This document shows, piece by piece, positions 47,001 to 52,993 of a stretch of DNA of 64,000 nucleotides (position 1 is its first letter; every line of letters starts with the position of its first letter). Below the pieces are notes generated by a model. The model was not told the origin of the DNA. It searched no databases and saw only the letters and a program-made list of their open reading frames with translations. The position numbers and the translations under genes are program-made. The DNA comes from Botryosphaeria dothidea (taxonomy: Eukaryota > Ascomycota > Dothideomycetes > Botryosphaeriales > Botryosphaeriaceae): assembly GCA_011503125.2 (NCBI GenBank), contig WWBZ02000018.1:81620-145619 (forward strand). The letters run 5' to 3'.

Positions 47001-50000
47001 AAAAAGATATCTTAGCACAGAGTCAAATGTTAAAACAGAATCAAATTTAAGATCAAAAATAGGACCCTACCTTGCGGGGTTAATAGAAGCTGATGGATCA
47101 ATTGCTGTACATAATAAAGATTCTAATGCTAAAAAATATCGTCCTAAAATACTTGTGGTATTTAGTACAGCAGATGAACCTTTAGCTAAAAAATTAGCTA
47201 ATATAACTAATGCTGGTAAAGTTTATAATAAAAATAATGCAGGTTGCGTTATTTGACATATTCAAAAAACAGAAGATGTTATAAAAATTATTAACATAAT
47301 TAATGGTTATATGCGTACACCTAAAATAGAAGCATTGCATCGTGCTATTAATTGATTTAATGAATTTGACAAATGCAGTATAGATACCTTAGGTTTAGAT
47401 CTATCACCTATAGATAGCAATGCATGATTAGCCGGTTTTACCGATGGAGACGGAAATTTTTCTATTACATTAACTAATAGAAAAAAGAAAGGGAATATTA
47501 CTAGTAAAAGAGTACAAGCCTTTTTCCGTCTTGAGTTAAGACAAACTTATCATGGAGATGTATCTGTAGAACAAGGGGGTACTAGCTATTTTGTTATATT
47601 AAGTAAAATAGCAACATATTTAGGTGTAAATTTGTACTCTAGGACTAGAGAACAAAATGATAAAGTGTTTTATGCCTTTATGGTTATATCTCACAGCGCA
47701 GCTAGCCATGCTAATGTTATAAGTTATTTTGATCGTTTTCCTCTATATTCCTCTAAATATTTGGCTTATAAAGATTGATACTATGTGGTTGAACAAGCTA
47801 AATTGCGAGCTGGTAAAGTTTTAACTCCAAAAGAAATTTCGGAGGTTGAAAAAATTAAAGCACAATTTAATAGTAAACGTAAATCGTTTGATTTTTCACA
47901 CTTGGATAGTTTAGCTTAAAACCCTTATTGTCTTATTAATTTTTGTACTTATTTTTTTTTATTGTATTCATACAAAAGAAATTGCCGTGAGTAGTAGCAA
48001 TATTACTCTTATTACATAACTATGTGCGGGAAACTCCTAAAGTCTTTTTATAGGTGTTGTGAAAACTTTTGTAGATTTAAGTCTAATTTTTTTTTGAAGC
48101 GTACACAACCTTAAATAATAAAAAGGATATTTTTATGTAATTAAAAAAATATATAAAAAAAATGGACAATCCGCAGGAAACGAAAAAAAACTTTTTTCCT
48201 TCCATTCGTGGAAGACATTAGTTTTTATAGGATCCTCAGAGACTATACGTTATGCTCCTGATCTTTCTTTTAAAGAAGAAATAAAAGAAAATTATTAAGG
48301 ATGAAGATATAGTCCAAATATAACCTAACGGTTATAACTAATTGAATTTCTTACTACCATTGTTAGTAGGAGGTCCAGATATGGCAAAAAAAAAGGACCT
48401 CCTTGGGTTGAATATAAGGTATTCTAGTCCCGACGGGCCTGTCCCGTCGGGACCTTACCGGTCCTTCCGGGAAAGTAATAATTTAAAATATAATAAATTT
48501 AAAGGGTATTTAGCAGGTTTATTTGAAGGTGATGGACATATTTGAATTCAAAAACCTGGTTTACAAAAGAGACAGAATCCTAGATTTTGTATAACTTTTG
48601 GTATGAAAAATGAACCATTAGCTAAAAAATTATTAGAACTAATAGGATCAGGATTTATAAGATATAAATTACAAGATAATGCTTGTGTGTTAGTTGTTTC
48701 ACCTGTTATAGGTTTAAAGAAAGTAGTTTATTTATTAAATGGTGAATTAAGAACACCAAAAATACATCAGCTTCATAATTTAATAGACTGGTTAAACAAA
48801 AACCATAGCACAAATATTACTAAATTGCCATTGAAAGATAGTTCTTTATCTGAAAATGGTTGATTAAGTGGATTTATAGATTCAGATGGTAGTTTTTCTG
48901 TACAACATACTAAATTAGAAAACGGTGCAAAGAAAAGAAAGATATCTTGCAGATTAAGAATTGAGCAAAGAATGTTAGATCCTATAACTAATGATAGTTA
49001 TTCAAGAGTTTTAACAGATATATCTAATTTCCTTAATTGTGCATTGTTGACTAGAAGGGGTAATTATGTTATTACTGCTAGTAATGATAAAAGCCTATCG
49101 ATTATTATAGGTTATTTAAATAAATATCCTTTACTAAGTACAAAATACCTTGAATTTAAGGATTGGGAAATTGTTGCAAATCATAAGCTCTGGAGAACAT
49201 ATCATTCAGAGGAGGTCTACAGATGTATACTAGACCTAAAGGCCGGGATGAATATGAATAGAAAAGATTTCAATTGGGACCATTTAAAAACTTGTAGTCT
49301 TGTAAGTAATTCATCTGGTCCTTTTTCAAACAATAGAATAAATTTAAATCAATTCGCAAAGTTTAATTCACATAAATGTACATTTTCTACAACCAGGTCT
49401 CTTTTTGAAGCATCGAACTATTCTCACTCTTCGGAAACTCCAGTAAAGATTTATAATATTACTCGTGATAAGTTGATTATTATCCGGGAAAATAGATCAA
49501 AAGCTGGAGTGTACCGTTTTTTAAATTTAACTAATGGAAAAAGCTACATAGGAAGTAGTACTAATCTTGGAAGGCGGTTTTCATAATATTTAAGCAATTA
49601 TTACTTGGAAACACTGCTTGATAAAGGTAGAAGCCAGATATGTTCTGCTTTACTAAGTTATGGGTATTCTGCTTTTAGTTTAGAAGTAATCGAATATTGT
49701 GCAGCAAAGGAAGCAATATCTCGTGAACAACACTATATTGACTTAATACGTCCGGAATACAATATCTTAACTACGGCAGGTTCATCTCTTGATCATATAC
49801 ACACTGAAGAGGTGAAGGAAAAAATGGCTCTAGCTTGATCTGCAGAGAGAAAAGCTAACCATTTAAGACATTTAGACCGAGTCAACTCAAGCCTTGAACA
49901 AAAAGAACATATGAAAAATCTCTATTTAAGTAAAAAAGGAGGTCCTCGATCAGAAGGGTCGGGTAGACCAAGTATTTCTATAGAAGTAATTGATCAAATT

Positions 50001-52993: not shown

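Follow-up and report, generated by a model that had tools for sequence, protein, structure and literature searches.

Intron 3 of the cox1 gene described here holds one LAGLIDADG homing endonuclease gene with two homologous C-terminal ends, separated by a GIY-YIG module. Which of these ends belongs to the gene, and how did the other one get there? Positions are those of the window, i.e. the whole 64,000-nucleotide stretch analysed, unless they carry the prefix C14.

Assembly context

The window is part of a mitochondrial genome on contig C14 (assembly G000), which passes more than once round a circle of 118,039 bp. On the unrolled circle, the two copies of the cox1 intron 3 stretch were identical; as both come from one assembly, they are no independent evidence for each other. 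Mitochondrial DNA ended inside a cox1 intron at ~53,330, and GC-rich (0.5–0.64), nuclear-like DNA followed up to 64,000. The other C14 copy of this place continued as mitochondrial. The switch is either an assembly joint or an insertion.

Layout of cox1 intron 3

In intron 3, a LAGLIDADG gene with two motifs came first, then a GIY-YIG module in frame with it, and finally another LAGLIDADG C-terminus (Table 1). Exon 3 read directly into the LAGLIDADG frame, which was open from 48342 to 49586 (+). Exon names follow known cox1 genes. Pfam recognized two PF00961 (LAGLIDADG_1) stretches and PF14528 (LAGLIDADG_3) in this frame; with its two PF00961 units, the gene is a double-motif LAGLIDADG_1 endonuclease. 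P0002, a relative, matched the solved meganuclease I-PanMI (5esp) with an E value of 3e-13. At the end of the frame, the first 26 residues of the GIY-YIG domain were found at residues 388–413, with a score (20.4 bits) below the cut-off of 22.6, because the frame ends there. The downstream fragment, 50265–50549, was PF00961 on its own (Pfam, E 1.7e-10). This fragment matched the upstream C-terminus at 42% identity over 79 aa (E 9e-16); for the displaced tail as delimited in Table 1, identity to the upstream copy was 43% over 81 columns.

Table 1 Features of cox1 intron 3 and positions of the linker motif, as interpreted from sequence comparisons.
Feature as interpreted	Position	Strand	Basis or remark
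cox1 exon 3 (14 protein letters)	48345..48386	+	translation
cox1 intron 3	~48386 to ~51022	+	cox1 exon 4 resumes with FPRLNN near 51024
native LAGLIDADG N-terminal part, in frame with cox1 exon 3	48387..49055	+	192/207 identical to P0022; PF14528, PF00961
imported LAGLIDADG C-terminus, came with GIY-YIG	49056..49307	+	35/82 identical to P0022; 95% over 82 columns to P0002
LAGLIDADG-to-GIY-YIG linker, contains CTFSTT	49308..49457	+	most related fusions have R-x-F-[ST]-[ST] there
GIY-YIG endonuclease, broken	49458..50154	+	in-frame stop and frame shift; intact relative P0002
spacer, ends in GC-rich palindromic stretch	50155..50291	+	by reading
displaced native LAGLIDADG C-terminus	50292..50549	+	93% over 85 columns to P0022; tree; PF00961
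conserved group I intron core motif	50809..50828	+	exact match common to introns 1 and 2 (46860, 48230)
presequence-like R-x-[FY]-S-T between host part and endonuclease	C14:4857, 17135, 22925, 118509 (nad3, window 36890)		

All of these parts are housed in one group I intron, whose core motif lies at 50809–50828. This motif, shared with introns 1 and 2, had a single copy in intron 3 at up to two mismatches, and the GIY-YIG frame continued from the host LAGLIDADG frame. The GIY-YIG thus appears to have been inserted at the 3′ end of the host gene without an intron core of its own, as is characteristic of a C-terminus-replacing mobile ORF. The displaced tail began in frame at 50292, directly 3′ of a GC-rich palindromic stretch that was recognized by reading; a palindrome search that required arms of at least 7 did not return it.

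The GIY-YIG module had an in-frame stop at 49584–49586, after which the same frame went on, and a frame shift near 50,015–50,030. The piece before the stop scored 24.5 bits with TIGR01453, below the cut-off of 56.05. The relative P0002, an intact fusion of 576 aa, reached 123.6 bits against the same cut-off. By this TIGR01453 score, an intact member of the cassette family is a predicted GIY-YIG homing endonuclease (TIGR01453/PF01541). The copy in the window is now broken as an endonuclease.

The initial annotation had described a GIY-YIG module without an intron of its own, fused behind a complete LAGLIDADG gene and followed by a second LAGLIDADG C-terminus. The frames, the Pfam matches, the single core motif and the alignment of the two C-termini, which it had called for, agree with this arrangement. 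Three details have to be corrected. The module is interrupted, as just described; the LAGLIDADG gene is a chimera, apparently native up to codon 49053–49055 and imported after it; and the start of the displaced copy is 50292 instead of 50298.

Origin of the two C-termini

Relatives were taken from the best 120 of 1,645 protein-search matches and from two further searches, giving 209 proteins in total. Fifteen of them, including the window's own (P0001), were LAGLIDADG + GIY-YIG fusions, and none of these had a tail of the P0022 type. P0022, a relative without GIY-YIG, was equal to the window's N-terminal part in 93% of the aligned residues (192 of 207). It was equally close to the downstream tail (50292–50549; 93% over 85 columns) and shared 43% of the residues (35/82) with the upstream tail (49056–49307). 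By BLAST, P0023 had 85% identity over 224 aa with the N-terminal part, a figure that counts an insertion in the window, 92% with the downstream tail and 41% with the upstream tail; the values for P0022 were alike. The upstream tail was 95% identical to that of the fusion P0002 over 82 columns.

This division held across the family. With the window and P0002 set aside, all 13 remaining fusions were nearer by identity to the upstream tail, and 118 of the 119 rows without GIY-YIG were nearer to the downstream tail, the exception being the distant protein P0209. Since relatives without GIY-YIG match the downstream tail and fusions match the upstream one, we infer that the gene's original tail is the downstream copy, now displaced, and that the upstream copy arrived with the GIY-YIG. 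The equal distance of the N-terminal part and the displaced tail from P0022 is expected of two halves of one gene.

A displaced native tail behind a LAGLIDADG host was observed in this assembly only. Among 53 loci (L020–L072) from scans of viral and genome contigs, neither the N-terminal part nor the two tails exceeded 48% identity (tblastn). Four of these loci, L020–L023, resembled other fungal mitochondrial pieces (L023 by tblastn only). In L020 (3–3042), which is a piece of fungal cox1 in IMG/VR, an inserted LAGLIDADG plus GIY-YIG appeared to split a LAGLIDADG gene, whose later part resumed at ~2485.

Phylogeny of the N-terminal and C-terminal parts

Separate careful trees were calculated for the C-terminal part (81 rows, 91 columns) and the N-terminal part (80 rows, 207 columns). 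They used 66 rows without GIY-YIG and 14 fusions; P0145 is without an N-terminal part. The long-branched proteins P0209, P0208 and P0017 were excluded, as were rows with a likeness of 90% or more. In the C-part tree, the 14 fusion tails formed one clade against 67 rows, with a support of 100/100, read from bootstraps that had not fully settled in either tree. The window's downstream tail lay among genes of the same LAGLIDADG family without GIY-YIG, with P0022 nearest, and did not group with unrelated introns. These positions of the two tails favour the take-over of the host 3′ end that had been proposed for this locus in the initial annotation.

In the N-part tree, the same 14 fusions were scattered among genes without GIY-YIG. 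The tree required nine changes (9–9 in the bootstraps), at least six of them forced by the starred branches. Holding the fusions together as one clade was rejected (p-AU 1.6e-8, delta lnL 295.6), with one set of identical rows on both sides left free in the test. Quick trees of 136 and 135 rows gave the same counts as the careful trees, one change for the C-part and nine for the N-part. In the quick C-part tree (136 rows), the clade contained 15 fusions, with a support of only 79. Together, the trees indicate that the cassette tails have a single origin and sit in several host backgrounds.

Entry point of the cassette

The window's chimera switched at 49055/49056. The fusion P0003 and the non-fusion P0022 were equal at 207 of 207 residues of the N-terminal part and then at 34 of 82, and they switched at exactly the same point as the window, behind LLTR, whose arginine codon is 49053–49055. 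For P0027 and P0014, 203 of 206 residues were equal and then 41 of 88, with the switch two residues later than in the window. In ten chosen pairs of a fusion and a non-fusion, the likeness ended at most two residues from the LLTR point; the junctions are placed within two residues and not exactly, as conserved residues there limit the resolution. Where the partner without GIY-YIG was a tandem LAGLIDADG-LAGLIDADG protein (P0007, P0014, P0015, P0018 and P0020), its second unit was compared. Several host backgrounds combined with a nearly fixed junction are the pattern that homing gives. A repeatable mechanism, originally proposed from the cox1 and nad3 loci, is thereby backed beyond these two, by 14 fusions, nine N-part changes and a near-single junction in ten pairs.

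In the proteins P0004–P0021, P0034, P0035 and P0048, the same cox1 LAGLIDADG was joined on one side or the other to a second LAGLIDADG unit, without GIY-YIG. Such LAGLIDADG-LAGLIDADG fusions are another way to stack endonucleases at this site.

Probable homing and its alternatives

We consider it highly probable that a site-specific cassette has repeatedly homed into the LAGLIDADG gene of cox1 intron 3, leaving the native tail behind. The cassette would measure ~1.24 kb (49056–50291), comprise a replacement LAGLIDADG C-terminus, the linker and the GIY-YIG, and enter behind ...LLTR. Its GIY-YIG would cut the native 3′ part of LAGLIDADG genes that are without the cassette, and the replacement tail would be too diverged for cutting. 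Repair of the break would then use the native N-terminal part and the displaced native tail as flanks. The host protein would stay whole, because the cassette brings an in-frame substitute tail. The starting points of this scheme, namely the chimeric structure, the identity of the native tail, the one origin of the fused tails, their several backgrounds and the near-single junction, we regard as demonstrated at the level of sequence comparison.

The main rival is gene conversion. A single ancient LAGLIDADG-GIY-YIG fusion could have been immobile ever since, with its N-terminal part later overwritten by conversion; GIY-YIG-free alleles of this cox1 intron would be natural donors. The single origin of the fused tails fits this history, and the discordance of the N-terminal parts, taken alone, could arise in this way. 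However, conversion leaves unexplained why a native tail lies behind the GIY-YIG in the window, at the same 93% from P0022 as the N-terminal part. Conversion tracts should also end variably, whereas the switch lay within two residues of one point in all ten pairs. We therefore regard conversion as unlikely, though it is the strongest competitor of repeated homing.

Two neighbouring introns, or a twintron, would make the downstream C-terminus what is left of a second LAGLIDADG intron. The available part of PMC12308204 reports complex introns from fungal mitochondria, and within the window cox1 intron 1 has a repeated stretch of its core region, with an Rfam core match at 46661–46944. Intron 3, however, had one copy of the core motif (50809), even if a diverged second core could escape the search, and the presumed remnant, which is 93% identical to P0022, belongs to one gene family with the upstream N-terminal part. 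Even at E 1, Rfam listed no core for intron 3; it does not decide the question, because the core at the intron's end also went unreported. A second intron is very improbable on this evidence.

Slightly less credible still is that the gene duplicated its own 3′ end in tandem, that the copies then diverged and that the GIY-YIG was inserted between them. Such a history would account for two homologous C-termini flanking a GIY-YIG, but the upstream tail falls in a clade with fusions of other LAGLIDADG backgrounds and is no diverged sister of the downstream tail, so that the careful C-part tree, as far as it is trusted, refutes it. An assembly chimera, which the turn of contig C14 from mitochondrial to GC-rich DNA near 53,330 might suggest, has a negligible chance of being right, as the same fusion occurs in the other public proteins P0002, P0003 and P0145; the displaced tail itself comes from the present assembly alone.

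Other loci of the mitochondrial genome

The initial annotation had pointed to the same architecture in nad3, and this order was found there at 36434–38046. A fusion of nad3 and GIY-YIG (36434–37726) was followed by a copy of the nad3 3′ end (37828–38046; 92% over 73 aa). Near its start, a GC-rich palindromic stretch with TAGATCT on both sides interrupted this copy (~37767–37835). In a weakly resolved quick tree, the nad3 GIY-YIG fell in another branch than that of cox1 intron 3. As the two GIY-YIG domains branch apart, the idea that both loci carry one and the same cassette was set aside, and they look like separate cassettes.

Further composite loci were observed. A gene read as nad1, at C14:57474–61354 (L014, L015), had its 3′ end fused to a GIY-YIG, with displaced 3′ pieces behind it (68% over 74 aa and 87% over 39 aa); the arrangement as in nad3 spans C14:57822–61354. 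A second LAGLIDADG-GIY-YIG fusion of this mitochondrial genome lay at C14:16448–17776 (L010 6498–7826), in another cox1 intron frame, with a LAGLIDADG N-terminal part followed by the GIY-YIG. Inspection by eye of the 0.9 kb behind it, in all three forward frames, showed no LAGLIDADG remnant. In cox1 intron 1 (44231–46950), a GIY-YIG frame was interrupted by a second, related GIY-YIG (44985–45658), a further frame followed at 46176–46649, and a stretch of the core region was present twice (~45870–46030 and ~46650–46810). This intron resembles the complex cox1-212 intron of Leptographium, as far as the latter is described in the available part of PMC10448965.

A motif in the linker

The comparison of linkers before the GIY-YIG domain covered 53 non-redundant GIY-YIG proteins in which 60 residues or more precede this domain. 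They were drawn from the retrieved proteins and the mitogenome loci and cut from 62 by the likeness of the upstream stretch. The motif R-x-[FYL]-[ST]-[ST] was present upstream of the domain in 26 of the 53, in none of the equal stretches downstream and in none of the reversed upstream stretches. Shuffled sequences had it in 1.0 on average, with a maximum of 5 in 500 shuffles, and a stricter set gave 22/48. The median distance to the GIY motif was ~40 residues (R-x-[FY]-[ST] form). The 26 carriers are not independent, because at least 11 of them belong to the lineage of the cox1 intron 3 cassette, and the counts are not a blind test, as the motif was first noticed by eye in the same proteins.

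Acidic residues (D/E) made up 2.3% before the presumed cut site, versus 9.7% behind the site and 8.9% in the complete proteins. They were absent before the site in 16 of the 26 carriers; in 1,000 random draws, the mean was 3.05 and the highest value 9. A similar motif, R-x-[FYL]-[ST], was found at the junction between cox1 exon and LAGLIDADG in 13 of 33 stretches (shuffles 1.4, maximum 5). These 33 were reduced from 53, and that of P0011 is long and holds a whole further LAGLIDADG unit.

Codons of the motif varied in four GIY-YIG loci of the mitochondrial genome (R: AGA/AGG/CGT; S: TCT/TCC/AGT; T: ACT/ACA). This variation favours selection on the protein and speaks against a motif conserved as DNA. 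Nine motif matches were counted in the mitochondrial genome, two of which look like chance: C14:28585, in a frame read as nad4L, and C14:116480, with K-x-L.

The available part of PMC8847149 quotes an Icp55 consensus, RX(F/Y/I/L)(S/A)(S/T), for plants, and calls it similar to those of yeast and mammals. The linker motif is like this plant consensus, with S/T at the residue that is S/A in the consensus. The same part of the paper reports that MPP cuts the tandem yeast protein Arg5,6 internally. The motif suggests that the GIY-YIG is released by an import protease at a predicted site. As a tentative proposal, to which we give somewhat less than an even chance, host-fused fungal mitochondrial endonucleases may carry an internal presequence copy in the linker, which would be cut by MPP (with Icp55), freeing the nuclease and keeping the hijacked host protein. 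The features behind this reading are a linker stretch poor in acidic residues, its end in R-x-[FYL]-[ST]-[ST] and the similar motif at the exon-LAGLIDADG junction. It applies at the level of the family, since 27 of the 53 proteins are without the motif and the window's own linker (CTFSTT), like those of P0002, P0003 and P0145, lacks its arginine.

Little was known about the machinery that frees exon-fused endonucleases, according to the available part of a 2011 review (PMC3073962). The linker motif points to a concrete candidate for this protease. In the open-licence literature on processing, we found no paper on MPP and endonuclease fusions, and the available part of PMC7272585 draws no link between the two. 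If true, release by MPP/Icp55 would make the take-over of a host 3′ end nearly harmless and repeatable, and would tell which protease matures exon-fused intron proteins.

Relation to known systems

Endonuclease ORFs that replace the 3′ ends of their hosts have been described for atp6, atp9, cox2 and nad3 of Glomus and for atp6 of Allomyces macrogynus (Beaudet 2013, PMC3630166). According to the available part of that report, these gene hybrids are like cox1 intron 3 in that an endonuclease ORF is inserted, a foreign 3′ end lies in frame with the native 5′ part, and the native 3′ end is displaced downstream and groups with close relatives. Judged by sequence, cox1 intron 3 has both the foreign in-frame 3′ end and the displaced native 3′ end that mark an ORF of the Allomyces/Glomus type. 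The hosts differ, being respiratory-chain and ATP synthase genes there and an intron-borne homing endonuclease gene here. So do the endonucleases: three of the four in Glomus are LAGLIDADG, whereas the cox1 intron 3 cassette is a GIY-YIG. In addition, among the relatives of cox1 intron 3, a single cassette occupies almost the same point in different backgrounds.

Three further systems are comparable, as far as the available parts of the respective papers describe them. In the complex cox1-212 intron of Leptographium sp. (PMC10448965), one endonuclease gene likewise invades another, with an in-frame fusion and a part displaced downstream. There, however, a LAGLIDADG gene that brings along part of a group I intron enters a GIY-YIG ORF in its N-terminal region, whereas in the window a GIY-YIG appears to invade a LAGLIDADG gene and to bring a replacement C-terminus. 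In the intron-encoded rps3 of Ophiostoma (PMC4019555), an endonuclease insertion has likewise pushed the gene's 3′ end downstream, but the host is a ribosomal protein gene and not an endonuclease gene. Endoconidiophora resinifera (PMC6279837) has duplicated host 3′ ends of cob and atp6 beside GIY-YIG and LAGLIDADG ORFs. Its hosts, in contrast, are core genes, the copies and ORFs lie in intergenic spacers, and some of the ORFs are degenerated.

The mechanism of C-terminus replacement is thus already published. In the open-licence literature, we found no report in which a GIY-YIG cassette takes over the C-terminus of a LAGLIDADG host gene, nor one of repeated capture at one site. Since P0003 and P0022 agree up to the entry point and then differ by the cassette, homing could be tested by a simple cleavage assay. 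Selfish genes would here parasitise other selfish genes by the route described for respiratory genes, through a narrow entry point.
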